Assembly (NCBI GenBank): GCA_013298545.1
Contig: JAAFIA010000028.1
Coordinates: forward strand, 1-50,772
Direction: 5' to 3'
Source: Bacteroidota bacterium
GTDB taxonomy: Bacteria; Bacteroidota; Bacteroidia; Palsa-965
Length of the DNA stretch: 50,772 nucleotides
Shown: in pieces, positions 7,161-35,420 of the stretch
Layout of the letters: each line of letters opens with the position of its first letter
Numbering within the stretch: position 1 is the stretch's first letter
Translations under genes and position numbers: made by a program
Notes under the pieces: generated by a model
The model's input: the letters and a program-made list of their open reading frames with translations, nothing else
Told to the model about the DNA's origin: nothing
The model's database searches: none

Positions 7161-9470
7161 ATGAAAAAATCTTACTTTTTAGCTAGTTTGTTGGCGGGTC
7201 TCTCGATGGGGCTTTCTGCACAAACTTCTACTTACAATTTTACGGGAGGCATCCAAACCTTTACGGTTCCTTGTGGTGTTACTTCCGTATTTGTTCAAAC
7301 CTGGGGTGCGCAAGGCGGTGCTGGTGCTACTGGCGGAAACTCCGTACTTGGCGGCTCTGGTGGCCTTGGCGGGTATGCCGAAGGTTTTCTTGCAGTAGCC
7401 CCTGGCGATGTCCTCAATATTTTTGTTGGCGGCCAAGGTGCTACACCAACAGGCGGATTTAATGGTGGTGCCAATGGTGGCTCACAAAACGCTGGCGGCG
7501 GTGGCGGCGCATCTGATGTGCGTAGAAATGGTACAGCAGAAGCGAATCGCGTAATAACTGCTGGCGGCGGCGGCGGCGGTGGCCGTGGTGGTTGCCATGA
7601 AGGCAGTGGAACTGGTGGTGTTGGTGGAAACGGTGGTGTTGGCGGCGGTGGCGTTGGCGTTAACGGCAATGACTCTCCTCAGAGTTCTGGTGTTGCTGGT
7701 GGCGGTAAAGGCGGTAATTTCGGAAGTGTTCAAGGTGCCTCTGGCTCTGCGGGCGTTGGGTGCTCTGGATTTCTTGGTGGCCCTGGTGGTACATCAGTTA
7801 CTGGTACTGGTGGTACTGGTGGTGCAGGACAAACCTGCTGCTGTTCTTCGTCCAATAGTGTTGTTGGCGGCGGCGGCGGCGGTGGCGGCCAAATTGGCGG
7901 CGGCGGCGGCGGCGGTGGTTCTGCTGGAACTACGGGTTGCGCTGGAAACTCGAAAGGTGCTGGCGGCGGCGGCGGCGGCGGTTCATCGTACATCGGTGGT
8001 GTTACTAGCGGAGTTGTGAATAATGGTATTTGGCTCGGACCTGGTCAAGTTGTTATTTCTTGGACTGCCCCTGTTCCTCCTTCACACGTTATTTCAGGTG
8101 CTTCAACAATTTGCCAAGGTGCTTCAACTAACTTAACTATTCCTGCCGATCAATTTTCAACATTCTATACATGGACTGTCCCTAGTGGATTGACATTTAA
8201 TAGTGGACAAAACACAACAGCTATTAATATTACTGGAGCAACTGCTGGTACTTACATGGTATATGTTGTTGGTGTAAATGGCCCTTGTAGCCTCACTGGT
8301 CCAATGGATAGCATTATGGTTACTGTAAACGCTCTTCCTACTGTTGCAGCAACTGCTGGTCCTGCGGTTTGTATTGGCGGCTCAGTGCAACTTGATGCGA
8401 CGGGTGCAGTTACCTACGATTGGCAACCCGGATCATTAGTTGGTACACCAGTTACAGTTTCTCCTTCAACTACAACAACCTATACGGTTACTGGAACAGA
8501 TGCGAATGGTTGTGTTAATAGCAATGTCGTTACTGCAACAATCAATCAGCTTCCAACGGTTACGGCCAATATTTCAGCAGTAACTGTTTGTAGTGGCGAC
8601 TCTGTTACACTTTTCGGTCAAGGTGCATCCACTTACGCTTGGACTGGTGGTATCACGGATAACCTTCCTTTCGCAGCAACAGCAACAACAACCTATACGG
8701 TAACGGGAACAGATGTTAACGGATGTTCTAATACAGCGTCTGTTGATGTAACGGTAAATCCACTTCCTGCAGTGAGCGCAAATCCATCATCGGTAACCGT
8801 TTGTAGCGGCGATTCGGTGGTGCTTTCTGGTCAAGGTGCAATCTCTTACACATGGTCTGGTAATATCTCAGACAACACTCCATTCATTCCAAATGCGACA
8901 ACAACTTATACTGTAACCGGAACAGACGCAAACGGATGTACCAATACTTCTACTTCAACCGTAACCGTTAATCCATTGCCACAAGTTTCTGTTGGAACAC
9001 TCGGAACACATTGTGTCAATGATGGCAGTTTCACTTTAACACAAGGATCTCCTGCGGGTGGATCATACGCTGGCCCAGGTGTTAGTGGAACAACATTTAC
9101 CCCAGCAACAGCAGGAACAGGTACACATACCATCACTTACACATTTACGGATGTAAATGGCTGTACAGCTTCTGCATCAGCAACAGTTGTGGTTAATCCA
9201 TGTGTTGGTATTGCTGAAATCGCTGGTTTCCCAGGAGTTGTTTATATGCCAAATCCGGCTACAACAACACTCCAAGTACGTTGGGATGCTTCGAAAGTAA
9301 CTGTAAATACAATCGAGGTGCGTGATATGACCGGACGCTTGATTTCTACACAACCTGTAACCGGAAACGGTACAACAGATGTTAACGTAGAAACATTGCC
9401 TGCTGGAAATTACAACCTCACGCTTATTTCTGAAACCGGTAAAGCAAATTACCAGTTTATCAAACAATAA
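7161..9470 (+). CDS. Secreted glycine-rich, Ig/PKD-like repeat protein with T9SS sorting domain
   Basis: 769 residues. A signal peptide (MKKSYFLASLLAGLSMGL, cleavage after SAQ) leads into a glycine-rich domain (about 25-300) that starts with a beta strand pattern (YNFTGGIQTFTVPCG) and continues with many GG-rich loops, like the Gly-rich fold seen in surface proteins. It is followed by at least four roughly 80-residue Ig/PKD-like repeats, each with VCxGxSVxL and TTTYTVTGTDxNGC. The last 75 residues (VVYMPNPATTTLQV to YQFIKQ) are a T9SS type A sorting domain. The protein should cross the outer membrane by T9SS and be released or attached as an adhesin or matrix component. A strong terminator follows. 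Confidence 0.92.
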   Translation: MKKSYFLASLLAGLSMGLSAQTSTYNFTGGIQTFTVPCGVTSVFVQTWGAQGGAGATGGNSVLGGSGGLGGYAEGFLAVAPGDVLNIFVGGQGATPTGGFNGGANGGSQNAGGGGGASDVRRNGTAEANRVITAGGGGGGGRGGCHEGSGTGGVGGNGGVGGGGVGVNGNDSPQSSGVAGGGKGGNFGSVQGASGSAGVGCSGFLGGPGGTSVTGTGGTGGAGQTCCCSSSNSVVGGGGGGGGQIGGGGGGGGSAGTTGCAGNSKGAGGGGGGGSSYIGGVTSGVVNNGIWLGPGQVVISWTAPVPPSHVISGASTICQGASTNLTIPADQFSTFYTWTVPSGLTFNSGQNTTAINITGATAGTYMVYVVGVNGPCSLTGPMDSIMVTVNALPTVAATAGPAVCIGGSVQLDATGAVTYDWQPGSLVGTPVTVSPSTTTTYTVTGTDANGCVNSNVVTATINQLPTVTANISAVTVCSGDSVTLFGQGASTYAWTGGITDNLPFAATATTTYTVTGTDVNGCSNTASVDVTVNPLPAVSANPSSVTVCSGDSVVLSGQGAISYTWSGNISDNTPFIPNATTTYTVTGTDANGCTNTSTSTVTVNPLPQVSVGTLGTHCVNDGSFTLTQGSPAGGSYAGPGVSGTTFTPATAGTGTHTITYTFTDVNGCTASASATVVVNPCVGIAEIAGFPGVVYMPNPATTTLQVRWDASKVTVNTIEVRDMTGRLISTQPVTGNGTTDVNVETLPAGNYNLTLISETGKANYQFIKQ

Positions 9471-21444: not shown

Positions 21445-21903
21445 TCAACTCTCCAGCATTCCTTTCAATTTCTCCAAATACCTTTTCATCCTTGGCTTAT
21501 ACCACATCCGTACAAAAACAGCAGGCGGCTCAACCGGAAGAATCTGTTTTAGATTATCTAGCGTAAACGAAAGCTGAACCGTAATCTTCGATTTTCCTTC
21601 GCTTACCAATTCAATACTGCGAATGCAATGCACCCACGTTGGATGCGAAGGTTGCGTTTCGATTTCGAATACATGCGGATGATCGAGTCGTTTAATTTCG
21701 ACGGGCGTTACTATTTTAAAAAAACGATAAATACGAATGTGCTCGGTTATCACACACCCCACCGCACTCCCACCGCTCACATCCATCCGCTCAACCTCCG
21801 CGCGCCACGCATGATCGTTCCGCAAATCGCTCACATAAGCATATACACGCTCCGGCGATACATGGATTTCAATGGATGCAACAAGTTGAATACGCTGCGA
21901 CAT
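21445..21903 (-). CDS. SRPBCC-fold (polyketide cyclase/START-like) protein
   Basis: 152 residues, no signal peptide. The pattern is that of the SRPBCC fold: an opening strand LVASIEIHVSPERVYAYVSD, a helix with HAWRAEVERMDV, central strands, and a long C-terminal helix (MWYKPRMKRYLEKLKGMLES). Members bind small hydrophobic ligands in a deep pocket; the ligand cannot be told here. It follows the Ter operon on the same strand but is separated by a strong terminator at 21935-21969, so it is probably not part of it. The 3' end lies beside the tandem repeat. Confidence 0.85.
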   Translation of the reverse strand: MSQRIQLVASIEIHVSPERVYAYVSDLRNDHAWRAEVERMDVSGGSAVGCVITEHIRIYRFFKIVTPVEIKRLDHPHVFEIETQPSHPTWVHCIRSIELVSEGKSKITVQLSFTLDNLKQILPVEPPAVFVRMWYKPRMKRYLEKLKGMLES

Positions 21904-21934
21904 ATTTCCCTTTTTTAGTTCGCGTTTTCGTTAT

Positions 21935-21969
21935 AAAAAAAATGCCTGAGCAAATCACTCAGGCATTTT
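21935..21969 (-). terminator. Terminator of the Ter operon
   Basis: On the minus strand AAAATGCCTGAG pairs exactly with CTCAGGCATTTT around TGATTTG, followed by a run of T. It starts nine bases after the terC-like stop and closes the ten-gene operon. Confidence 0.85.
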
Positions 21970-21977
21970 CAATTTCG

Positions 21978-22760
21978 TTATTCGGCACTACCGCTTCCAC
22001 GTTTGGGCCAATTCAATAATGTACTTGTCAATAACGGAACAAAGAAAATCGCTACCGTCAAGATCGAAGTTCCCCAATCAGCAGCATGACTTCCTAAAAA
22101 CTTGCTGAACGCTTGATCGGGATAAAAATGTTCGTACAACGACAACAACAATTTCAAGCCAAGCACTGCGATAACCACAAAGGCTGCCGTTTCCAGAAAT
22201 GGATATTTTTCCATCAGTTTGACAAACGCTTGCGCAACAAAACGCATCGCTAAAATGCCGATGAATACACCAATCCAAATCAGAATCAGATTCTCGCTAA
22301 ACGCAACCGCTGCAAATACGTTATCAATTGAAAAAGCCATATCCATCAATTCGACCAACGCAACCGTTGCCCAGAAATTTCCAAACGCACCAATCGTTGC
22401 CCGATACAACCAATTTCCTTTTTTATCCAATACATCATCATCTTTACTTTCCGTCTGTTTCCCTTTATACCAATCGTAAACCAAATACAAAAGGTATAAA
22501 CCACCCAACGGTTTCAAAAACCAAAACTGAATCAGGAAACCTGCAAACAAAAGTGCTAAACCACGAAACACATACGCCCCAATAATGCCATAACGCAAAG
22601 CCTTGTTGCGCTGCTCGCCCGGTAAATCCATAACCATCGTAGCCAGAACCGCAGCATTATCAACCGACAATAAACTTTCGATGACAATCAAATTGCCAAT
22701 GATCGCTAAGGCCGTCATCGGTTGGTTCACGATTTCTTGTAACTGTGCAGCTATATCCAT
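21978..22760 (-). CDS. TerC-family integral membrane protein
   Basis: 260 residues, about seven to nine membrane helices. The two internally related halves carry the family's acidic motifs: ESLLSVDNAAVLATM (about 28-42) and ELMDMAFSIDNVFAAVAF (about 137-154), where the E/S-x-D-N residues sit within helices and probably bind a metal ion. TerC proteins are thought to act as metal (often manganese) exporters and as membrane anchors for TerD-type complexes. It is the last gene of the Ter operon, 41 bases after the kinase gene. A cytoplasmic loop rich in Lys and Asp separates the halves. Confidence 0.92.
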   Translation of the reverse strand: MDIAAQLQEIVNQPMTALAIIGNLIVIESLLSVDNAAVLATMVMDLPGEQRNKALRYGIIGAYVFRGLALLFAGFLIQFWFLKPLGGLYLLYLVYDWYKGKQTESKDDDVLDKKGNWLYRATIGAFGNFWATVALVELMDMAFSIDNVFAAVAFSENLILIWIGVFIGILAMRFVAQAFVKLMEKYPFLETAAFVVIAVLGLKLLLSLYEHFYPDQAFSKFLGSHAADWGTSILTVAIFFVPLLTSTLLNWPKRGSGSAE

Positions 22761-22801
22761 AAATGGTGTTTGTTTTAGATGATGGTAAAAGTACGATGAA
22801 T

Positions 22802-24319
22802 TTAGTTAGCCACCAGTTGCACAATGATCAATCGACCACCGGCTTCTGTTGATAATAAGATCTTTTTTCCTTCGGTCAATTCAACCGCCGAACCAATCGG
22901 AATTTCTTTATCCTCACTCACATCTTTCAACGATGTCAGTGTTTGATTGATCAATTGCCATTTGCCGCCGTGAAACACAAAATAACCAACTGGTTTTACT
23001 TGCTCTGCCGTTAATTTTTCGTTCGGAAAAATGCTGCGGTTTACATGCCACGGATACAAATACTGATTGTTGTAAACCATCAAGCGTTGATTTTCTAAAC
23101 CAAACTGGCCATCCGGTTTTTTGTAATACAAATTCAGCACAGGCAACTGGCCGCGATACGGCGTTCCGCAAAACGGACAAACTGGCTTCGTTGTATTCGC
23201 AAACACAAACCATTTCTGATCGCACATGGTATTTTGGCAAGGCTGCATCAAATCAACCGTTTTAATCAAGGCCGATTCCCAATCGTCAGCCGTTGGTCGT
23301 GCCGAAGGATTTTGCAAGCCATCAATAAATGCCTTGTTGAATAAATCCGTCAAATAGGGGCCGCAAATCGTATAAGGAATTTTGTTTACGTCAGCCCAAG
23401 GCAAATGCGTTGGTTTCACTTGATTCAATTTCGGGCGATTGCTCAAATCGGTAGGATGCTCTACAAACAAAGCTTTAGAACCCATGCCCAACTCTTCATC
23501 CTTCTGCGGATCGGTATCGTGAATTTTTCCACCACGCAACGGATGACGGTACAACAAATACATATAAATCATCACCGCCAACGCATGCCGATCGGTAGCA
23601 ATACTTGGCAATTTCCGGTTCGGATCGGTTTTGCCCAAATGCTTCGTTGACATCACTTCCGGCGCAATAAAATCAGGCGTTCCAATCACGTCTGGCGCAA
23701 ATTTGCCGGGCACAACCAAGCCATCAATATCAATGATTGCCGCGCGTCCAGAAGATGGATCTATCAACACATTTTTGTACGACAAATCCGAATGCGCCAA
23801 TCCTGCCGAGTGCATCCGACGCACCGCACGACTGATTTTAATACACACTAAAAAATATTTGAACCAATCGCCTAATTCCGATTTGTCTAAATGCAATTTA
23901 AAACTCTTGCTGCGAAACTGCGCCGATGCAAACCATTTGCCCTCTTTCTCTTTTCCACGAATCGACGAGATTTGATTGCCAGAAGGATTGTAACCCGTTT
24001 GAAAGAAAAAATGTTTTTGATATGTAGGCACAACAATTCCCGTGCGGCCATTGTATTCAACCATATCGTAAGGCCAACAAAACAAATCTTTCCAATAATC
24101 GCCACCAGCCTGATTGAAAATGCGTTCGCGGTAATTCTTCACGATATTCGTCAAACGCTCTTTGGAATTAAAGTCTTGCTTGTCGCGAAAAAAGGCAACC
24201 ACATACGAACGGTCCGGCGCGAAATAAACATCCTTCATGCCGCCCTGCATCGGCGAACCATCGTCAACAAACTGATACGATTTTCCCTCTTGCGATTTTA
24301 CAGTTATTGTTTTGCTCAT
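22802..24319 (-). CDS. Atypical protein kinase with zinc ribbon (Ter-associated kinase)
   Basis: 505 residues, cytosolic. The kinase domain (about 20-350) has a glycine-rich loop GGMKDVYFA, the catalytic loop AHSDLSYKNVLID (HxDLSxxN) and IIDIDGL in place of DFG. The expected beta-3 VAxK lysine is not obvious (VVAFFRDK). A zinc ribbon follows (MCDQKW, then CPFCGTPYRG, about 365-395), and the last 110 residues are beta-rich and end in a strand pattern that recalls FHA domains (weak). Kinase, PP2C phosphatase and TerY-type vWA genes in one operon match the published Ter 'TerY-P' triad. It starts two bases after the phosphatase gene. Confidence 0.88.
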   Translation of the reverse strand: MSKTITVKSQEGKSYQFVDDGSPMQGGMKDVYFAPDRSYVVAFFRDKQDFNSKERLTNIVKNYRERIFNQAGGDYWKDLFCWPYDMVEYNGRTGIVVPTYQKHFFFQTGYNPSGNQISSIRGKEKEGKWFASAQFRSKSFKLHLDKSELGDWFKYFLVCIKISRAVRRMHSAGLAHSDLSYKNVLIDPSSGRAAIIDIDGLVVPGKFAPDVIGTPDFIAPEVMSTKHLGKTDPNRKLPSIATDRHALAVMIYMYLLYRHPLRGGKIHDTDPQKDEELGMGSKALFVEHPTDLSNRPKLNQVKPTHLPWADVNKIPYTICGPYLTDLFNKAFIDGLQNPSARPTADDWESALIKTVDLMQPCQNTMCDQKWFVFANTTKPVCPFCGTPYRGQLPVLNLYYKKPDGQFGLENQRLMVYNNQYLYPWHVNRSIFPNEKLTAEQVKPVGYFVFHGGKWQLINQTLTSLKDVSEDKEIPIGSAVELTEGKKILLSTEAGGRLIIVQLVAN

Positions 24320-24321
24320 GG

Positions 24322-25722
24322 CTAATAAAGAATTGCAATCGTTCGATCATCGTGATTTCCCGGACTCCAAAAATCCAGCCACGCCATCAATTGTTCTTCC
24401 ACCAACTCGGGCGAAGCAGAAAAATCAACCACACAACCATCATTATTTTTTCCACCCAAATCGGCCCACAACTCATTCCATTTTTCAACCCGATTTAAAT
24501 TCGCATCCGTCTGAAATTTCGGATCCGTAATCCCGTCCGTCATCAACACCAAAGCCGTAAAATCTTCCACAATTTTGTAGCGAATACGACTCACGTATGC
24601 ATTGTCAGCAAAAATATCCGACATGGTTAAAAAACGCGTCTGCCCTGCAAATTCGCCGCTGTCGGGCGTTCCCAACACAGCAACTTCATTTTTGGGCTGA
24701 TGGTATAAACCAATTCCACCATCGCCAACCCAAAACGAAGCCGTTACAAATCGGCTGTTGAATTGTTTGACAAAAGAAAAAATCAAGGTTGTAGAATAAT
24801 CCCGCATATCAGCACCATTGGCCGTAGCTTCTTCCCGAATTTTCCCTTGTGCCTGAAATGCCGCTTTGCCAATATGCTCTAAAAAAAACGCACTCAATTT
24901 TTTTTGATTCTCCTCCGATTCTTCCGCAATGTAACTTACGACCAACGTATCTGCTGCCGAAAATAATTTCGCATCCATCGTTTTGAAAAAATCTACAGCG
25001 GTTTGGCAAGCAATCTCCGAACCTTTGCGGCTATACTTTGCCGAACCAGCACCATCCGCTACCGCAACAACTCCCCAACCCGTTTCCTCGTTGAAATACG
25101 CATCAAAACCATCGTCCCGAAATTTCCCTTCATGCTCGTGGCTGCGCCCGCGCTTAGACGCCAGCACAACCGTATGCGAGCCAAACGCAACATGGGCCGA
25201 AGCAGCATCTGGCTTCCAGTATGGATCGGTTGTATCGGAATTCAATTTCTTCCACAACGATTTTGGATCGGGATTGATGATCAGCCTGATTTCTTTGCTG
25301 TGCATCGGTTGTTCACTTCCTTTGATTTGAAACTGAAGCGTCAACACATATTCGCCTTGCTCGGCCAAGGTTCCCGAAATCGTATGGTTCTCTTTCGAGA
25401 ATGTTAGCCCCGTTTGCTCCGGCACAAGCAATTCGTAATCGCCAATTTCGGAAAGCGGTTCTTTTGAAAAATCAAACGTAAACGTATAATTTTTCCCTGC
25501 CATGCCATTGGGTAAAACCACATGCAAAGCTTTCACATCTTCGACAAGTGCTTTTTGTTTCCACAAATCCAACATCGTTTGTTGTGCTTTTAAAATAGAT
25601 TGATACGCTGCAACCGTCGCTTCATCGTTGACGTAAGCATCGAGCAAAATCGCATGATGCTTCGCAACCGTTATTTTGTATTTTCCAAAAAGAGCAAGCG
25701 TGTATTCTTTTACCTGACTCAT
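24322..25722 (-). CDS. PP2C-type phosphatase with N-terminal Ig-like domain (Ter-associated)
   Basis: 466 residues, no signal peptide. After an N-terminal helical region, residues about 65-155 form an Ig-like domain of the He_PIG type (TGLTFSKENHTISGTLAEQG). The PP2C phosphatase domain follows (about 180-466) with the metal-binding motifs VVAVADGAGSAKYSRKGSEI, DYSTTLIF, WVGDGGIGLY, LVLMTDGITD and the terminal NHDDRTIAIL. It should remove phosphate from Ser/Thr, opposing the kinase encoded two bases downstream; the vWA gene ends two bases upstream. An Ig-like domain in a protein without an export signal is unusual. Confidence 0.92.
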   Translation of the reverse strand: MSQVKEYTLALFGKYKITVAKHHAILLDAYVNDEATVAAYQSILKAQQTMLDLWKQKALVEDVKALHVVLPNGMAGKNYTFTFDFSKEPLSEIGDYELLVPEQTGLTFSKENHTISGTLAEQGEYVLTLQFQIKGSEQPMHSKEIRLIINPDPKSLWKKLNSDTTDPYWKPDAASAHVAFGSHTVVLASKRGRSHEHEGKFRDDGFDAYFNEETGWGVVAVADGAGSAKYSRKGSEIACQTAVDFFKTMDAKLFSAADTLVVSYIAEESEENQKKLSAFFLEHIGKAAFQAQGKIREEATANGADMRDYSTTLIFSFVKQFNSRFVTASFWVGDGGIGLYHQPKNEVAVLGTPDSGEFAGQTRFLTMSDIFADNAYVSRIRYKIVEDFTALVLMTDGITDPKFQTDANLNRVEKWNELWADLGGKNNDGCVVDFSASPELVEEQLMAWLDFWSPGNHDDRTIAILY

Positions 25723-25724
25723 CG

Positions 25725-26789
25725 TTATCCTTGTGTACGGTTGATGTTGATCGGATCGTTGCTGCCACTAAATCCGTATTCGCCCTGATTGCCGCACCAC
25801 GGACAGGTTGTAAATTTTTCATTGCCTACACAATGCAATTTCCCGCAACGACAAACCGCAAAACCGTATTGATTTCCGCACGATGGGCAAGCCGGAAAAC
25901 CAACCAATTCATCGGTACTTACTTTGCTGCTCACACTCGCATCTGACGAAAATTCAAAATACGAATTATCAACCGGAAACGCGCCCACCAAGCGATACGA
26001 CAAGGTGCTGATGTCTAAATCGCGCAAATCGGATTGCTGCGAATCGCGGCGGTATTTGATGAGGTACGGCTTTTTTGTGTTTTGACATTTCGCTGCAAAT
26101 ACGGCAAAATTGGAATCAATATATCCTTTGTTCGGAACAGGCTTGTTGTCAAAATCAACTTTTGAAATAACGTCGCTGTTTGTTTTGGCCAGATCAAAAC
26201 CTGAACCGTTATTGTCAACGCTTTCGCTGCTCGATTTGATCGAAGCCGTTACCCAGCGGAAAAATTCTTTGTACGATTGTGCCGATGTATTTTTAAACAA
26301 CAAGACATGCTCGGTCAATTCGCGCAGCAAATGCAAATCGGTTTCGGCACCAAACGAAACGGCAACCAAATTGCATTGATTTTGCCAGTTGGTTTTCCAT
26401 TCTTTAATGGCGGCAGAAGTATCGTCTGTCGGAACACCATCGGTAAACAAAAAAACAATGGGTTTCCAATCGCCTTTTTGTTCTGATGTTGTTTTGATCA
26501 AATTGCGGCGCATTTCGTACATGAGATGCCCCAAGCCATTGCCAAGCGATGTTCCGCCACCAATCGGGAAACGTGGTGGATAGAAACTGATAATTTCCTG
26601 AAGCGGCACAAGTGTGCGCGATTGTCCGGCAAAAACCAAAATAGACACATACACCGTTTCCAGCGCATACGGATCAGATTTTAATTCTTTGATGATGGTG
26701 GCCAAACCTTCTTCAACCAATTGAATTTGTTCGCCAACCATCGACTCTGATACATCGATCAGAAAGAAAATAGGAAGTCGTCTCATCAT
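25725..26789 (-). CDS. TerY-type vWA protein with C-terminal TerY-C zinc-binding domain
   Basis: 354 residues; the second Met (26786) matches the start of its two paralogues (MRRLP) and may be the true start. The vWA domain (1-200) has an intact MIDAS: DVSES, the Thr in GGGTSLG and the Asp in FTDGVPTD. A middle beta region (about 225-300) leads to a Cys-rich tail with four CxxC-like knuckles (CPSC, CRCGKLHC, CPWC), fitting the TerY-C metal-binding domain. It is the partner of the phosphatase and kinase downstream. Metal-dependent assembly of the phospho-signalling trio is an inference. The other two vWA proteins of the operon lack this tail. Confidence 0.92.
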   Translation of the reverse strand: MMRRLPIFFLIDVSESMVGEQIQLVEEGLATIIKELKSDPYALETVYVSILVFAGQSRTLVPLQEIISFYPPRFPIGGGTSLGNGLGHLMYEMRRNLIKTTSEQKGDWKPIVFLFTDGVPTDDTSAAIKEWKTNWQNQCNLVAVSFGAETDLHLLRELTEHVLLFKNTSAQSYKEFFRWVTASIKSSSESVDNNGSGFDLAKTNSDVISKVDFDNKPVPNKGYIDSNFAVFAAKCQNTKKPYLIKYRRDSQQSDLRDLDISTLSYRLVGAFPVDNSYFEFSSDASVSSKVSTDELVGFPACPSCGNQYGFAVCRCGKLHCVGNEKFTTCPWCGNQGEYGFSGSNDPININRTQG

Positions 26790-26854
26790 GACAGCACGGT
26801 GTTTTTATGAAACATGAACACACGAAGTGTTCTGATTTTTTTATGTGTTGCCGA

Positions 26855-27112
26855 TTACCGAAACAAGCCGTAAAGCATGAGCAGAATAATCAGCAAGAGC
26901 AATTGCGACATATCGACGGCTAGTCCGTAACCAACTTGAGCAGGTTTCATAAACTTGCGAAAGAAATTGAGAATCGGACTAAATACGCGATCGAAAAAAT
27001 TAAAGATCGATTTGTATTGATTGGCGAGGCGGTCTTTGTGCGGCAAGAGTTTGGAATACAAAAACAAACCAACAATAGCAGCATACACCAATAAATGGAG
27101 CAAGAATTTCAT
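26855..27112 (-). CDS. Small membrane protein, YggT-like
   Basis: 85 residues with hydrophobic helices at both ends (LLHLLVYAAIVGLFLYS and LAVDMSQLLLLIILLMLYGL) around an amphipathic middle. The phrase SPILNFFRKFMKP followed by a helix starting D-x-S resembles one YggT repeat (P-x-L-x-x-x-R, then D-x-S-P), but the match is weak. It lies in the middle of the Ter operon, one base after the preceding vWA gene, so it may tether the Ter complex to the membrane. The 65 bases after it contain a small GAACAC/GTGTTC hairpin (26816-26832). Confidence 0.72.
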   Translation of the reverse strand: MKFLLHLLVYAAIVGLFLYSKLLPHKDRLANQYKSIFNFFDRVFSPILNFFRKFMKPAQVGYGLAVDMSQLLLLIILLMLYGLFR

Positions 27113-27113
27113 A

Positions 27114-27749
27114 TCAGATAATCAGATGAACTTCGGCAGGAGGTGGCGGTAAAACCATTTCTTCTGCTGTACCCACACTTTTATTTCCGGTTCCGATAGA
27201 TGCCGAAACCCATTTAAAAAACGACATCAGTGTTGAGCTATCTGCCGTATCGAGGTGAACTACGGTGTCGGTTAATTCTTTGAGAAAACTGTCAACCGCT
27301 TCGGCCCCCGCCGCACAAGCGACCACCGCGCCAAAATTTTTCGTTTTGACGCGTGGCACAGCTTCGCGAAATTTCGCCAAATCAGAAGGTTTTCCATCTG
27401 TCATTAAAAACAACAGTGGCCGCCAATCGCCTTTCTCTTCCTCGGTACTTCGAATAATTTCACGGTCAATCTGATCGCACAACATCAGCAAGGCTTCGCC
27501 CATATTCGTTGGCCCAGATTCGGGCGGAATAATTTCGGGCAACTGCAAATGCTCTAAATCGGTCAGCGGAAGCAATTGCTTCACTTCCCGATCAAACGTA
27601 ATGATGCTGATGTGTACCGACTCAAGTGCAAACGGATCTTGCCGGAGTTTGGAAACCAAAACCTGCAAGCCATTTTTAACCGCCTCAATGCGTTCGCCAC
27701 GCATGGAACCTGAAGTATCGAGCAATAAATAAACGGGCAATCTTCTCAT
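27114..27749 (-). CDS. TerY-type vWA protein
   Basis: 211 residues, a stand-alone vWA domain. The MIDAS is complete: DTSGSMRGE, the Thr in SGPTNMGEAL and the Asp in LMTDGKPSD. The closing helix is FFKWVSASIGTGN and the protein ends in a Pro-rich tail (LPPPPAEV). It is close in sequence to the vWA protein at 28214, so the two arose by duplication, with a TerB-like gene between them. vWA proteins of this type bind divalent metal through MIDAS and assemble complexes; its partner is probably TerD or the kinase/phosphatase pair. Confidence 0.93.
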   Translation of the reverse strand: MRRLPVYLLLDTSGSMRGERIEAVKNGLQVLVSKLRQDPFALESVHISIITFDREVKQLLPLTDLEHLQLPEIIPPESGPTNMGEALLMLCDQIDREIIRSTEEEKGDWRPLLFLMTDGKPSDLAKFREAVPRVKTKNFGAVVACAAGAEAVDSFLKELTDTVVHLDTADSSTLMSFFKWVSASIGTGNKSVGTAEEMVLPPPPAEVHLII

Positions 27750-27761
27750 GGGGTAATCAAT

Positions 27762-28142
27762 TTATGCAAGCAACGATTCGAGGTTTGCCGGGAAATTTGC
27801 TGAATGCTTTTTCAAATGCAACAACAAATTTTTCTCAACAGCATCAATCGCTCCATCGCCTTTAATTTTGTTATACAACCAATTTGCTTCGTCGATGTCA
27901 ATCTCGCCAGCAGAACCTTCGTCATCGAGCAAATAACTTGAAACGGCTTTGATAAAAAGCGTTTCCCAACTGGCGTGATTTGCTTTTCCGGAAACCGCAT
28001 TGTTGAGTTCGAAAAGCATATTCGCTTCTTCGGCATCAATTTTTCCATCGGCCATCAAAACCGCTTCGAGTTCGGCTACTTCAGCAGCATCAATCACGCC
28101 ATCGGCGAGTAATTCTGTTTTCAATTGTTCAAGACTTTTCAT
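27762..28142 (-). CDS. TerB-like acidic helical protein
   Basis: 126 residues, all-helical and very acidic, no signal peptide. It contains repeated DGxID-x-x-E units (ADGVIDAAEVAEL, ADGKIDAEEANML, GEIDIDEANWL and GDGAIDAVEKNLL), the pattern of TerB-fold proteins and loosely of EF-hands. Metal or calcium binding is likely but not shown. The position between two vWA genes in a Ter operon strengthens the TerB reading. A free-standing EF-hand-like protein is the alternative. Confidence 0.78.
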   Translation of the reverse strand: MKSLEQLKTELLADGVIDAAEVAELEAVLMADGKIDAEEANMLFELNNAVSGKANHASWETLFIKAVSSYLLDDEGSAGEIDIDEANWLYNKIKGDGAIDAVEKNLLLHLKKHSANFPANLESLLA

Positions 28143-28213
28143 GTTCTCTTTTTTTATTTCGGTGAATCCACTACGGAACTAACGTTTGTATTTCCGCTAA
28201 CACATCCTTGCGG

Positions 28214-28852
28214 TTAAACAACGATATTTACTTCTGGTGGTGGTGGTGGTAATTCATTGATTCCTCCAACTTCTTTTCCACCCGATTCAACTTTCTGACT
28301 TCCGGTACTGATCGATGCCGAAACCCATTTGAAAAACGCTTTGATTGTTCCAGAATCTGCGGTATCTAACGACACCACAACTTCGGTAATTTGACGTAAA
28401 GCACTTGTATCTGCCGCAGCACCAGCCGCACAAGCAACCGTAATGCCCACTTTGCGTTTTTGAAATTCGCTCAAGCCCGCTTGCCACGAATCGGTTGGAA
28501 CACCGTCGGTCATGATAAAGACCAACGGTTTCCAATCGCCTTTTACTTCGGGCGAAGACTTGACCAACTCGCGATCCATACATTGCGCCACCATGCTCAA
28601 TCCTGCACCCAACGATGTTCCACCACCCGCTTGAATTTCCTGCATTTGGAAAGAAGTCAAATCGGTAAGCGGAATAAGTTGGTTTGCTGTATTGGCAAAC
28701 GTGATTACGCTGATGTATGCTGTTTCAAGCGCATACGGATCTTGACGAAGTGTTGAGATCAACACTTGAACGCCATTTTTCACAGCCTCGATAGGCTCGC
28801 CAGTCATTGAACCGGAAACATCCAATACGAGGTAAACAGGTAGTCTTCGCAT
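28214..28852 (-). CDS. TerY-type vWA protein
   Basis: 212 residues, a single vWA domain starting MRRLPVYLVLDVSGSM. The MIDAS is complete: DVSGSMTGE, GGGTSLGAGL and IMTDGVPTD. The closing helix FFKWVSASISTGS and the Pro-rich end (LPPPPPEVNIVV) are shared with the paralogue at 27114. It starts seven bases after the terD gene upstream, so the two are probably co-translated, and TerD is its likely partner. Confidence 0.93.
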   Translation of the reverse strand: MRRLPVYLVLDVSGSMTGEPIEAVKNGVQVLISTLRQDPYALETAYISVITFANTANQLIPLTDLTSFQMQEIQAGGGTSLGAGLSMVAQCMDRELVKSSPEVKGDWKPLVFIMTDGVPTDSWQAGLSEFQKRKVGITVACAAGAAADTSALRQITEVVVSLDTADSGTIKAFFKWVSASISTGSQKVESGGKEVGGINELPPPPPEVNIVV

Positions 28853-28859
28853 AATTTGG

Positions 28860-29531
28860 TTATTGATAAGTATGAAGTTTCAATACATCGATGAAACTAT
28901 CCGATTGTTGTGGTTCTCCAAGCGCACGGAATTTCCAAGTACCATCGCGACGATATACTTCGGCAAAAATGAGTGAGCACATGCCATTGTAAGAAGCATC
29001 GCCAGAAAGACTGAATTTCACGATTTCTTTTCCGCGATTATCAACCGCACGAATAAATGCGTTGTCGATCATTCCGAAATGTTGGTTATTCACTTTGCCT
29101 TGGTAAATTGTTACCATAAACAAAATTTTCTGGTAGCGCTGATCGAGTGAATCCAACTTCACAATAATTTGCTCATCGTCGCCATCACCAGCACCGGTTC
29201 GGTTATCGCCAGTGAGCCAGATATGACCTGATGGATGTTGTTGCGAGTTGAAGAAAATGACATCGCCTTGATAGAGGCTGATGTTGCGGCCATCTTGCGC
29301 TTGAATGCGGCGACCAAGATCAGCCACTTTATCGTTGCTATCGAGCAAGAACGCAACAGCATCCAAATCGTAATCAGCTTCTTTCGCACCAAAAAGTCCG
29401 CTTAGAAATCCACCCGATTTTTTGCGGACATCCCAGCCCAAACCGATGGTTACAGATGATAAATCGAAGCTCTCGCCTTTATCGTTTTTACGCAGGTCAA
29501 TGGTTTGACCTTTTACTAAGTTAATGGCCAT
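28860..29531 (-). CDS. TerD-family protein
   Basis: 223 residues, a calcium-binding beta-sandwich. It starts MAINLVKGQTIDL and shows the family pattern: GLGWDV, DLDAVAFLLD, GDNRTGAGDGDDEQIIVKL (the GDDE calcium site) and IYQGKVNNQHFGMIDNAFIR. It is about 30 residues longer than the TerD upstream, with an insertion near residue 40 (KSGGFLSGLFGAKEAD). TerD proteins are cytosolic or membrane-associated and form the core of Ter stress complexes. It is the second gene of the operon. Confidence 0.96.
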   Translation of the reverse strand: MAINLVKGQTIDLRKNDKGESFDLSSVTIGLGWDVRKKSGGFLSGLFGAKEADYDLDAVAFLLDSNDKVADLGRRIQAQDGRNISLYQGDVIFFNSQQHPSGHIWLTGDNRTGAGDGDDEQIIVKLDSLDQRYQKILFMVTIYQGKVNNQHFGMIDNAFIRAVDNRGKEIVKFSLSGDASYNGMCSLIFAEVYRRDGTWKFRALGEPQQSDSFIDVLKLHTYQ

Positions 29532-29566
29532 TGCGTGTGATGGGTTTTAGTATGTATGTGTGAGAA

Positions 29567-30142
29567 TTACTTGATAATTTGCCCGCTGTAATACTTCGCG
29601 AGGAAGAATGCCAGATCTTCTTTGTAACCAATGCCAGAAGCTTCAAATTTCCATTTGCCATCGCGCTTGTACAAACGTCCAAACTCAACCGCTGTTTCAA
29701 TGGAAAAATCTTCACCCAATTCGTACTTCGCAATTTCTTGACCATTTGCATCGTCAACAATACGAATGTATGAATTGCGCACTTGTCCGAAATTCTGCTT
29801 ACGCGTAGGCGCATCGTGAATGGTTACGACAAACAAAATTTCTTCGATAGAAGCATCGGCTTTCGACAAATCAACCTGAATGGTTTCATCATCGCCGTCA
29901 GAACTGTTGCCGCCTGTTGGATCATCGCCTGTATGATGCAAAGCACCATCTGGAGAATCGGTATTTCCGTAAAAAATAAAATAAGGCTCGGCTGGAATTT
30001 GGCGGTTGCCATTGATCATAAATGCAGACGCATCTAAGTCGAATGAATTACCTGTTCCTTCGTTTGGAGTCCAACCCAAACCAATGCTCATCTTCGATAA
30101 GCCAATGTCAATTTTTTGACCTTTCTGTAAATTGATTGCCAT
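29567..30142 (-). CDS. TerD-family protein
   Basis: 191 residues from the ATG at 30142, the standard TerD/TerE/TerZ length. An in-frame start at 30205 would read through the promoter. It begins MAINLQKGQKIDIG and has the conserved blocks MSIGLGWTPN, FDLDASAFMI, GGNSSDGDDETIQVDL (GDDE calcium site), TIHDAPTRKQNFGQVRNSYI and GRLYKRDGKWKF. It is the first gene of the Ter operon. The paralogue at 28860 differs mainly by an insertion and a longer tail. Confidence 0.96.
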   Translation of the reverse strand: MAINLQKGQKIDIGLSKMSIGLGWTPNEGTGNSFDLDASAFMINGNRQIPAEPYFIFYGNTDSPDGALHHTGDDPTGGNSSDGDDETIQVDLSKADASIEEILFVVTIHDAPTRKQNFGQVRNSYIRIVDDANGQEIAKYELGEDFSIETAVEFGRLYKRDGKWKFEASGIGYKEDLAFFLAKYYSGQIIK

Positions 30143-30173
30143 AGTGTGTAATTGCTGTTTTTTTTGTGTGTCC

Positions 30174-30181
30174 CAAATATA
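30174..30181 (-). promoter_or_regulatory. -7 box of the Ter operon promoter
   Basis: TATATTTG on the minus strand, exact TAnnTTTG match, 32 bases before the first terD ATG. The -33 region is weak, which may mean that an activator is needed (inference). Confidence 0.6.
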
Positions 30182-32248: not shown

Positions 32249-33082
32249 ATGACTTTTAAAAATCCATGGGGTAAGGGAAACCCCAATTTTGACCGCTGGT
32301 CTAAAAATAATCCGTGGGAGGGGGGAAACGCGGAAGTATTATCCACCACTTCGCTTGAAAAAGCCTTGACAGATGATACAGGAAATCTAATCATTTTAAC
32401 AGAAGCTTTTCAAGCCTCAATTGTGTATCGCGTGTATGCAAAGCTACTGGAGAACTCGGTATTTCAGCGATTTTTAGCTCCTTTTAAAATAAGTGATGAA
32501 CACAATCTGACGTTTGATTTTGATAAGATGGATGATGGTCGAGGCTTATCTGCACAAACCGAGGTAAAGGATGAGAATACGGAAAACATCATCATAACCA
32601 TGAATGGGAACGAAAAATTTTACAGGAATTCTATAAAAGATGGGACAGTCTATAAGGTGAAACCGGCAGATATTTATATTGCTAAAACATTGATTCACGA
32701 AGCAATCCATGCTTATATTGCCGTAAATGGATATCAATATCCGTGGACTGGTGCACCAGGGCCAGTGCAAGAGCATAATTTTATGGCTACTGATTTTCGA
32801 AAGGATATTGTTGACGGATTGCGTGAGTTTGCAGAGGAGAATTTGATCAGTATGTTGGAAACAGACCTAGAAGCAATTTCTTGGGCTGGTTTGGATGGTT
32901 CAATTGCTTGGGATAAATTAACTCCAGAATTGCAGCGCGATTACATAACACGATTTGTACACTTTTCAATGCAAGTTTTTCATTCCATAAATGGGAAGGT
33001 TGTTCAAAATGATGCAGAGACTTATGGCGGCAATCTTCTTACTCCTGAACAGGCTGCGACCCGCAAACACGTTACAAAATGA
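32249..33082 (+). CDS. Putative zinc metallopeptidase-like protein (HEAIH)
   Basis: 277 residues with no signal peptide. The hallmark is TLIHEAIHAYIAVNGY (about residue 150), a HExxH zincin helix; a third metal ligand further on (candidates in EHNFMATDF or later Glu/His) is not certain. The N-terminus is rich in Asn, Trp and Gly (NPWGKGNPNFDRWSKNNPWE), like the linker region before C-terminal toxin domains. The stop overlaps the next lipoprotein start by four bases (ATGA). This pairing looks like a toxin with its immunity protein, but no secretion or Rhs domain is present. It could also be a simple intracellular peptidase. Confidence 0.7.
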   Translation: MTFKNPWGKGNPNFDRWSKNNPWEGGNAEVLSTTSLEKALTDDTGNLIILTEAFQASIVYRVYAKLLENSVFQRFLAPFKISDEHNLTFDFDKMDDGRGLSAQTEVKDENTENIIITMNGNEKFYRNSIKDGTVYKVKPADIYIAKTLIHEAIHAYIAVNGYQYPWTGAPGPVQEHNFMATDFRKDIVDGLREFAEENLISMLETDLEAISWAGLDGSIAWDKLTPELQRDYITRFVHFSMQVFHSINGKVVQNDAETYGGNLLTPEQAATRKHVTK

Positions 33083-33128
33083 AACAAACAATCATCGCTT
33101 TTAGCATTGTGTTTGCGGTTATATCCTG
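33066..33128 (+). repeat. Duplicated leader/signal-peptide segment, copy 1
   Basis: 63 bases that recur at 33727-33789 with two mismatches. It covers the last codons of the zincin-like gene and the start plus signal peptide of the lipoprotein at 33079. Confidence 0.9.
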
Positions 33129-33669
33129 CGCGCCAGATCCCAAAGCTCCACTTGGTATAGATTTGAGTGACTCTGTCTTGGCAAAACGTCCGACTTGGAA
33201 GGCATACTATTGTGATACGATATTCTACAGGTCGGATAGCCTACCTTGCATTGAATCATTTACCAGAAATGTGATACGACACGACAACTACTATATTGAA
33301 TCGACTGATCGAAGTGTTGGAAATAAAATATCTGTACTCAGAGATACTTTTTTCATTACCCCTTCTGGCAATTGGTATCAAATGCACAATGGAGCATGGG
33401 ATCTGTTTTTCTCTAAGACTTCATTTGCTTCAAAGACCAAGACCTACATCAGAAGGAATAATTTCCGCTCAGATAATCTTAAAGAATATACTCCTGACTC
33501 GCACTATGTTTCGAAAAAGTATGGGCCAATGTATCGATTCAAACTTAAATTCCCTCTAAGTCGTGAACCTGAAGATATAAGTGTAGATTTCTCGCCGTAC
33601 TATGGCCAAGTTAGTATCATCGGTAAATGGCAAATGTCAAGAATCAGCCACATTGATTCTACGCAATAG
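33079..33669 (+). CDS. Lipoprotein, possible immunity protein
   Basis: 196 residues. The lipoprotein signal is MKQTIIAFSIVFAVISC (lipobox Cys at about 17). The mature part is rich in Tyr, Arg, Ser and Asp (KAYYCDTIFYRSDSLPC, YGPMYRFKLKFPLSREPE) and unfamiliar to me. It overlaps the zincin-like gene by four bases and shares its first 17 codons almost exactly with the next lipoprotein, although the mature parts are unrelated. A membrane-anchored immunity protein is a context-based inference. Confidence 0.72.
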   Translation: MKQTIIAFSIVFAVISCAPDPKAPLGIDLSDSVLAKRPTWKAYYCDTIFYRSDSLPCIESFTRNVIRHDNYYIESTDRSVGNKISVLRDTFFITPSGNWYQMHNGAWDLFFSKTSFASKTKTYIRRNNFRSDNLKEYTPDSHYVSKKYGPMYRFKLKFPLSREPEDISVDFSPYYGQVSIIGKWQMSRISHIDSTQ

Positions 33670-33726
33670 ATAAAATGTTTTTATAAAAAAATCTGTATGT
33701 AAAAATCTTGACCAATGCAGCCCACC

Positions 33727-33789
33727 AACACATTACAAAATGAAACAAACAATCATCGCTTTTAGCATTGTGTTTGCGGTTTTATCCTG
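33727..33789 (+). repeat. Duplicated leader/signal-peptide segment, copy 2
   Basis: Second copy of the 63-base segment. The bases just before it (about 33714-33726) also weakly resemble the end of the zincin-like gene, as if a toxin 3' end had been copied with the signal peptide. Confidence 0.9.
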
Positions 33790-34279
33790 TGGCACACGGA
33801 CAGAAGTTCCTATGGGTATCGATATGAGCGATGGGGAAACAATAGATGGCGATGGAACAAATAAGGAGTCTGGTAATAAATATTGGTGGGAAGGCTTGAT
33901 TGAACCGCCTTATATGTCCCCAGAAGAAATATCAATGGCCTGTGGTGCGAGCACATTAACAGGAATAGGATTAATTATGCTAATTAGAAGTGGAGAACAA
34001 GTAACCGTAAGTGGAGAAGTGGAGTTTGCTTTTTTTGACCGATATGACTGGAAACCAGGGGATAGTGTCTTGGTCGGTTTTAGTTGGGGGCAAGCATTAA
34101 TTTATCCATTAGCTGGCTTACCACTTGAAGAATGGCCTGATTCTAACATGATTCTATTGGATGAATTTCGTGGGGCAGCAGAATTCGATATGATAGCTAG
34201 TTGGAAACAAAAGGTAAGTGGAACTATTTCTATTGGCACTTTTTCAAATGATGTAGAATTAACTTGGACTGACAAATGA
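33740..34279 (+). CDS. Lipoprotein with duplicated signal peptide
   Basis: 179 residues. The lipoprotein signal MKQTIIAFSIVFAVLSC is the same as in the gene at 33079 apart from one residue. The mature part is unrelated to it: acidic start (GIDMSDGETIDGDG), a Met/Gly-rich central hydrophobic segment (GIGLIMLIRSGEQ), then beta-rich sequence. I do not recognise the family. It overlaps the four-helix membrane protein at 34276 by ATGA, so the two are coupled. A second, orphan immunity protein is possible. Confidence 0.72.
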   Translation: MKQTIIAFSIVFAVLSCGTRTEVPMGIDMSDGETIDGDGTNKESGNKYWWEGLIEPPYMSPEEISMACGASTLTGIGLIMLIRSGEQVTVSGEVEFAFFDRYDWKPGDSVLVGFSWGQALIYPLAGLPLEEWPDSNMILLDEFRGAAEFDMIASWKQKVSGTISIGTFSNDVELTWTDK

Positions 34280-34698
34280 AGAAAGGCTCCATCATCTATT
34301 GCTTTGGATTTTGGCTATCCATCATAGTCGCTTATGCCATCAAAGGCAATTTGCATATTCTTTTCTCAGGCAGTACATTGTTAGGATTTTTCGTTGCAAC
34401 GATTCATCTAGTTGCATTGTCGTTTATTTTAACCGCGGTAGGCTCAAATTTGTCCGCAACATATCGTGTTTTTTTATCTGCTATTTGGATCTTACTACCA
34501 GTTGTTGTTATCACACTCTACATGGAAATCTGTTTTCATGTATTTTTCGTGCATACTCACGGATTCGGGTATGTAAGTGGTTTAGGGGATTCAAAAAAAA
34601 TATGGTTATTGTTCGTCGCGATTTCATTTTTTTGGTCAGTCATTTCTTATTGGTTTGTTGTGCCGAAAAAAATAAAAAATCATGAATCAAAGCACTAG
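34276..34698 (+). CDS. Four-helix membrane protein
   Basis: 140 residues with four likely membrane helices (SIIYCFGFWLSIIVAYAI, LLGFFVATIHLVALSFIL, FLSAIWILLPVVVITLYM and IWLLFVAISFFWSVISYWFV) and a short basic tail. It is coupled by a four-base overlap to the lipoprotein at 33740 and overlaps the mini-gene at 34682. I do not recognise a family. A membrane-resident immunity protein is possible by context. Confidence 0.7.
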   Translation: MKKGSIIYCFGFWLSIIVAYAIKGNLHILFSGSTLLGFFVATIHLVALSFILTAVGSNLSATYRVFLSAIWILLPVVVITLYMEICFHVFFVHTHGFGYVSGLGDSKKIWLLFVAISFFWSVISYWFVVPKKIKNHESKH

Positions 34699-34786
34699 AA
34701 AATATCTTCAACTATCGTTTGTGGCATTTGCGATATCTTTTATCGTTCTCTGTGCAACGTATTTTGTTTGCATACTTCCTGCTTAG
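34682..34786 (+). CDS. 34-residue single-helix membrane peptide
   Basis: The ATG at 34682 lies 17 bases inside the preceding gene in another frame; 34 codons follow before TAG at 34784. The product is MNQSTRKYLQLS followed by a hydrophobic helix (FVAFAISFIVLCATYFV) and CILPA. The basic start and single helix fit a small inner-membrane peptide translated by coupling. Size alone makes it uncertain. Confidence 0.4.
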   Translation: MNQSTRKYLQLSFVAFAISFIVLCATYFVCILPA

Positions 34787-34877
34787 GGTACTGATGATGG
34801 TTCGTCGCAAGTAGCATAAGGATATAACGTAATTTTTAGATTAGTAACTTCGTTCGGATAAATTTACGTCAGTATGA

Positions 34878-34906
34878 TTTGGCGTATGAAAGACTTGCTA
34901 AATTTG
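34878..34906 (+). promoter_or_regulatory. Candidate promoter before the 34980 gene
   Basis: TTTG (34878-34881), 17-base spacer, TAAATTTG (34899-34906). The predicted start is about 68 bases before the ATG at 34980. The spacer is slightly short. Confidence 0.45.
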
Positions 34907-34979
34907 GAAAATTCACACAACACTTGTTTCCTTAAAAAACTCAATTATCTTTAACCACCACAATTCAGCAACACCATTC

Positions 34980-35420
34980 ATGAAAAAACTTTTAGTAGCC
35001 ATTATTTGCTTGGCTTTTTCCACGCTGAATCTTTCAGCACAAACTGATGTCGATGCGAAAGCCGATAATTGCTACACCAAATGGGAAGAAAAATTTGACG
35101 AACGCGGTGCAGAAGAGGTAAAAGACGGAACTTACGAAGATGTCATCATCACCATTCGCAGTGGCAGCACCGCACAATGTTATGCCGGAAAAGTAGAAGT
35201 GAAAGATGGTAAAATCATTGCCATGTACCGTCGCTTAGAAGATGGTTCTTACGAAGTATTCAAACGTAAATTGAAATACGAAGTACCGATGACCATCACC
35301 AACGGCATCAGCGCAACGTTGCTGACGATGAATGATGAATTGATCAATGTTATTTTCCCGAAAACGCTCAAACCAAAGAAAAAAGGCTACGTTGCAGCAC
35401 CTGAGCCGCCACAAGATTAA
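34980..35420 (+). CDS. Small secreted protein of unknown function
   Basis: 146 residues. A signal peptide (MKKLLVAIICLAFSTLNL, cleavage after SAQ) precedes a compact alpha/beta mature part with DNCYTKWEEKFDERGAEEV, DVIITIRSGSTAQCYAG (two Cys, possibly a disulfide) and a Pro/Lys-rich end (PKTLKPKKKGYVAAPEPP). I do not recognise a named family. The DUF6157 gene begins 15 bases later, so the two may be co-transcribed, although one product is exported and the other is not. Confidence 0.78.
   Translation: MKKLLVAIICLAFSTLNLSAQTDVDAKADNCYTKWEEKFDERGAEEVKDGTYEDVIITIRSGSTAQCYAGKVEVKDGKIIAMYRRLEDGSYEVFKRKLKYEVPMTITNGISATLLTMNDELINVIFPKTLKPKKKGYVAAPEPPQD

Follow-up and report, generated by a model that had tools for sequence, protein, structure and literature searches.

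A chromosomal Ter/TerY-P operon of Bacteroidota with a recurrent YggT gene and a TerC position occupied by two subfamilies

The operon and its surroundings

The window analyzed here is the whole 50,772 bp stretch of contig JAAFIA010000028.1 (assembly GCA_013298545.1), from a genome of 4.53 Mb in 154 contigs whose relatives are Bacteroidota. Between bp 30,142 and 21,978 its minus strand carries ten intact, co-directional ORFs (Table 1) in the 5′ to 3′ order TerD, TerD, vWA, TerB-like, vWA, YggT, vWA-TerY_C, PP2C, kinase and TerC, and the nine gaps between them are, in order, 35, 7, 71, 12, 1, 65, 2, 2 and 41 bp. An earlier note on this DNA had proposed a ten-gene Ter operon here, and the place holds one as described, with every ORF intact, no gap above 71 bp, a (weak) -7 box and a clear terminator. 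Profile searches with all ten proteins place the vWA, TerC and TerD proteins in Ter families; nine of the ten score above the Pfam cut-off, the exception being the 126-aa TerB-like protein.

Table 1. Features of the Ter operon in the window
Feature	Position (bp)	Strand	Evidence and remarks
Candidate Bacteroidota -7 box TATATTTG	30174..30181	-	Weak; 32 bp before first ATG
TerDa, TerD-family protein	29567..30142	-	PF02342 225 bits; Asp residues conserved in relatives
TerDb, TerD-family protein	28860..29531	-	PF02342 181 bits in two stretches; insertion after first TerD segment
vWA1, short TerY-type	28214..28852	-	PF00092 56 bits; MIDAS (DVSGS...T...D) intact and conserved
TerB-like all-helical protein, 126 aa	27762..28142	-	PF05099 20.3 bits (cut-off 24.4)
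vWA2, short TerY-type	27114..27749	-	PF00092 54 bits; intact MIDAS
YggT-family small membrane protein, 85 aa	26855..27112	-	PF02325 32.5 bits (cut-off 27)
vWA3 with TerY_C zinc-binding tail	25725..26789	-	PF15616 164 bits; VWA 49 bits
PP2C phosphatase	24322..25722	-	PF13672 (PP2C_2) 135 bits; ~190 aa N-terminal extension
Ser/Thr kinase with C-terminal zinc ribbon	22802..24319	-	PF00069 (Pkinase) 38.8 bits; kinase fold
TerC-family membrane protein, YkoY/MeeY subfamily	21978..22760	-	PF03741 174 bits
Intrinsic terminator	21934..21969	-	12-bp stem and T run; clear; downstream of terC

The first gene is the only one in the operon with a -7-type box within 150 bp upstream, and no TTG (-33) lies 17–23 bases upstream of that box; since boxes of this type are common by chance, it is weak evidence for a promoter. 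A Mn riboswitch upstream of the operon was rejected as a candidate, as no part of the window reaches the gathering score of any Rfam family.

The flanking genes that can be named have housekeeping functions (comM-like, ATP synthase beta/epsilon and FAD synthetase), and in the other genomes of the genus comM is not on the contig that carries terC. For the ORF at bp 21,445–21,903 a single other genome of the genus gives a match, and a weak one; at bp 32,249–35,420 four of the co-directional ORFs have no Pfam match.

Judged from sequence, the ten genes are the Bacteroidota chromosomal version of the known Ter/TerY-P stress system, which is widespread in that phylum. The window has the components of a TerY-P triad (a TerY-like vWA protein with intact MIDAS, a PP2C with its metal-binding Asp and a zinc-ribbon Ser/Thr kinase) together with the TerD-domain proteins that mark a Ter system, and the noted link of a TerY-P module with intact kinase and phosphatase to Ter proteins and membrane parts is borne out by Pfam scores and conserved motifs. 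Tens of Bacteroidota genomes share this gene order, so the operon is more than a chance arrangement. The family identity of its proteins is firm; the mechanism discussed at the end is one that we infer.

Related loci

A scan of the genome collection gave 80 loci, 74 of which combine vWA3-TerY_C, PP2C and kinase with one or more short vWA genes and form the core set used below; because all were recruited by likeness to the window vWA3, the counts describe this branch rather than all Ter systems. TerY_C is found in two of the seven genomes of the genus and in ten of the 395 genomes of the phylum sample, and among plasmid records 2,293 have a match to the vWA/TerY_C protein. Both short vWA genes accompany vWA-TerY_C, PP2C and kinase in 70 of the 74 core relatives, TelA is present in 19, a 52-aa ORF in 16 and the TerB-like gene in four. 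The 52-aa ORF (beginning MGKFGFSFSLNRLLG) has no Pfam match and is conserved between vWA1 and vWA2 (L074:8953-9111 and 15 other loci). Three further families of unknown function recur in Bacteroidota Ter operons: one of ~137 aa (L068:7532-7960; 33 loci), one of ~161 aa (L054:9266-9748; 22 loci) and one of ~321 aa (L015:3029-3994; 24 loci).

The Bacteroidota MAG locus L030 (JAFDZJ010000036.1) agrees with the window operon in all ten genes and in their order, and its vWA3 is 70% identical to that of the window; it differs in an Alx-type TerC and in an extra 52-aa ORF between vWA1 and the TerB-like gene. The Ter/TerY-P locus of the IncHI2 plasmid pNDM33-1 (L012) likewise has a run of vWA, TerD, vWA, vWA-TerY_C, PP2C and kinase, with TerD, TerB and TerC nearby, but it consists of two opposed gene groups, its TerC is Alx-type, no YggT lies beside TerY_C, and it carries a biosynthetic group (ATP-grasp, PRTase, StiP-type and aldolase genes). 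On a plasmid of Azospirillum ramasamyi (L013), TerD genes, TerB, TerC, vWA, vWA, vWA-TerY_C, PP2C and kinase lie on one strand; there the Alx-type TerC is upstream of the vWA genes, YggT is missing and biosynthetic genes follow downstream. Since this core is shared by both plasmids, three vWA genes are the normal set, and the idea that their number is distinctive of the window was dropped.

TerD, vWA and TerB-like proteins

The MIDAS, PP2C and HxDLS motifs are intact in the window proteins and nearly invariant among relatives. The TerY_C tail of vWA3 has seven Cys (residues 235, 301, 304, 315, 320, 329 and 332) that are invariant in 93 sequences, and two further ligands that are nearly so (C313 in 85/93 and H319 in 91/93). 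One locus, L127 (L127:9535-12857), from the 88% complete genome G290, carries TerD genes, vWA, vWA, YggT, PP2C and kinase, and PP2C follows YggT there with no TerY_C protein in between; the zinc tail is thus not needed everywhere.

The small helical protein scores under the PF05099 cut-off, so “TerB-like”, as it had been called, is the fitting label. It contains four DGxID/GEID-xxE motifs, the third of which is EF-hand-like; this loop spans residues 74–85, and the relative in L093 has DENSNGEIDEQE. Copies 60–79% identical occupy the same place in five other loci, and hhalign gives a probability of 11.7% for a match to TerB of L012/L013. The predicted model (pLDDT 91.6) has seven helices, and a fold search with it gave no clear match, which is ordinary for helical proteins. 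No PDB relatives were found by sequence for the TerB-like protein, vWA3 or TerC.

Phosphatase and kinase

The metal-binding Asp residues of the PP2C phosphatase are invariant in 89 sequences. Within its N-terminal extension, residues 104–130 have a very weak Ig-like match (He_PIG, 14 bits).

The predicted structure of the kinase (pLDDT 87) shows a protein-kinase fold, and the four zinc-ribbon cysteines (C361, C366, C381 and C384) are present in 86 of 86 sequences. None of these 86 kinases has the VAIK lysine, position 44 being Phe in 58 and Tyr in the other 28. The sole invariant lysine of the N-lobe strands (86/86) is K29, which lies in the motif G-x-M/V/A-K-x-V-Y-F and opens a predicted strand at residues 29–33. 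Residue 45 is Arg or Lys in 85 of the 86 (His in one), and residue 54 is acidic (Glu or Asp) in 84. The same lysine pattern is seen in the IncHI2 and Azospirillum kinases. WNK kinases have a lysine at G-loop position 55 and none at the VAIK place (PMC1821047), and by motif assignment the window kinase has a WNK-like lysine placement, with no K72 and a G-loop lysine (a profile search meant to align its N-lobe to WNK gave an alignment that covers the catalytic loop region only). The likeness consists of the missing VAIK lysine and the invariant G-loop lysine; overall similarity is not WNK-specific, and the window kinase differs in its zinc-ribbon C-terminus. The Arg or Lys at position 45 is a possible alternative to K29.

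The YggT and AIM24 position

The small membrane protein encoded between vWA2 and vWA3 is the sole YggT match in its genome, and YggT copies in other Ter operons are 42–61% identical to it. YggT is present in 43 of the 74 core relatives and AIM24, which is likewise a membrane-linked family, in 13, with both together once; in a larger set, in which a few genomes may be counted twice, the slot between vWA2 and vWA3 holds YggT in 50 loci, AIM24 in 13 and both in one. The two avoid each other (Fisher's P = 6e-5 over the 74 loci, kinship ignored) and have been exchanged at least five times on the kinase tree. Every clear YggT match that was checked in the sampled genomes falls within a Ter operon, which in one case (L127) has no TerY_C; a YggT fragment in L158 (G266) was set aside, as it has no adjoining Ter gene and contains a stop. 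In L018 (bp 7391–7591, genome G027) a TGA breaks the YggT frame, and the remaining operon is seemingly intact. YggT had been counted among “extra membrane parts” of the operon; it is a membrane part, and it is a recurrent component rather than an odd extra.

Linkage of AIM24 to Ter genes is mentioned in PMC5822837, which cites Anantharaman 2012; no paper joining YggT with Ter genes turned up among the literature within reach of our search, which did not extend to Anantharaman 2012 itself. A chloroplast relative of YggT, YlmG, is recruited to preprotein-translocation complexes (PMC13399175), and the TerC-family proteins MeeF and MeeY co-purify with the Sec machinery (PMC10550928). By analogy, YggT and TerC might share a site near the translocon, which we regard as a lead and not a result.

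The TerC position

The last gene does encode a member of the TerC family, as had been noted, but not the classical TerC of Ter operons: it scores 246.6 bits against TIGR03716 (YkoY; cut-off 138.5) and 51 bits against TIGR03718 (Alx; cut-off 246), and the classical assignment was therefore rejected. This marks a variant and not an exclusion from the Ter systems, because ~44% of the TerC proteins in related Ter operons are YkoY-type. TerC is present in 59 of the 74 relatives (33 Alx-type and 26 YkoY/MeeY-type), in most of them directly after the kinase gene with a median gap of 31 bp. The split is clean: the two subfamilies are ~24% identical, and the YkoY-type relatives are 50–79% identical to the window TerC. 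On the kinase tree, which was built by a quick method with SH-aLRT support only, TerC type has been exchanged at least 13 times, and sister pairs that differ in it include L061/L069, L074/L081 and L091/L107. That two subfamilies have replaced each other so often suggests that what selection preserves here is a TerC function and not one gene lineage.

Each genus genome searched has one TIGR03716-level TerC, which lies within the Ter operon in the window genome and in G003 and stands alone in the other five (two of these five are incomplete). In the TerC tree the five free-standing copies group in a single clade separate from the two operon copies, so the operon TerC seems to have replaced the resident copy; elsewhere in the tree operon and free-standing copies are mixed, with at least five changes. 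The window TerC belongs to the same TIGR03716 subfamily as MeeY (YkoY) of Bacillus subtilis, but MeeY is under riboswitch control (PMC12096827), whereas nothing in the window matches Rfam. MeeY and MeeF of B. subtilis function in Mn export and, with SecYEG, in the metalation of secreted proteins (PMC10550928, PMC12096827). TerC of Klebsiella pneumoniae has a role in envelope-stress tolerance and is dispensable for metal and ROS resistance except to tellurite (PMC9933665).

Possible function of the operon

The Ter proteins were earlier proposed to form a membrane-linked complex (work cited in PMC5822837 and PMC9933665) and TerY-P to be a metal-sensing phosphorylation switch (PMC11090510). The reading that we favor, tentatively and at somewhat under an even chance, is that the operon encodes a phosphorylation switch docked at the inner membrane that would control TerC-dependent export of divalent metal, or metalation, under stress. 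The TerD and TerB-like proteins would bind Ca2+, and the vWA proteins, as adaptors that depend on metal at their MIDAS, would bring TerD, kinase and phosphatase together in a complex that YggT, or AIM24 in other genomes, keeps at the inner membrane. Kinase and PP2C would toggle phosphorylation of a vWA protein, TerD or a membrane partner, and the output would depend on TerC: Mn2+, or some other divalent cation, would cross the membrane or be loaded into exported proteins, by which the envelope may be maintained under chemical or phage stress. We count the exchangeable TerC, the slot shared by YggT and AIM24, the steady company of the vWA genes with PP2C and kinase, the conserved catalytic residues of these two enzymes, and the roles of MeeY/MeeF in Mn export and of K. 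pneumoniae TerC in envelope stress as support for such a switch. TerC may, on the other hand, be a neighbor of the operon rather than its output, given the free-standing YkoY-type copies in five genus genomes and the 15 of 74 relatives without a nearby TerC. That K. pneumoniae can do without TerC for metal and ROS resistance other than to tellurite also speaks against this reading.

An unlikely but not far-fetched alternative is a phage-defense or abortive module, in which infection would free the kinase from PP2C so that host targets become phosphorylated, with the Ter proteins as gates at the membrane and TerC serving ion balance only. TerY-P triads do occur alongside CoCoNuT restriction systems, and TerY-P-like modules whose kinase has an OB fold act in defense on their own (PMC11090510); the window kinase also matches PADLOC defense kinases, but these matches are weak and confined to its catalytic region. 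The operon has no nuclease or other effector, the named genes beside it are housekeeping genes, and its relatives retain TerC, YggT/AIM24, HAD and PRTase rather than nucleases. Reading the locus as a defense island was rejected, as the operon gives no strong PADLOC match.

Control of the production of a nucleoside-like compound, such as the title of Anantharaman 2012, a work that PMC5822837 cites, proposes for Ter systems, would bring in the HAD and PRTase (PRTase_3) genes that lie inside the operons of 43 of the 74 core relatives, and the window operon would then be a reduced, signaling-only form. This is quite unlikely: the window operon has neither gene, a search (run without a positive control) found no PRTase match elsewhere in the genome, and the nearest kinase relatives, L029 and L030, also have no HAD or PRTase.

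The earlier note had the zinc-tailed vWA protein sense metal and act as scaffold. Conservation of the TerY_C ligands would agree with that role, as would the place of this protein next to PP2C and kinase in almost every locus. The seven invariant and two nearly invariant ligands fit a structural zinc site equally well, however, the kinase has an invariant zinc ribbon of its own, and L127 does without the tail, so that metal sensing by the tail is unsupported and seems quite improbable. It is very improbable that the sensor of stress is instead the kinase, through a putative anion bound in its altered pocket, with YggT/AIM24 and the exchangeable TerC as membrane output.

Plasmids of enteric bacteria often carry Ter systems. 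The recurrent YggT part, the TerC position open to two distant subfamilies and the WNK-like kinase lysine are the fresh points here, and the YggT partner, the TerC position and the shifted lysine offer handles on membrane docking, on a metal-transport output through TerC and on sensing by the kinase, respectively.
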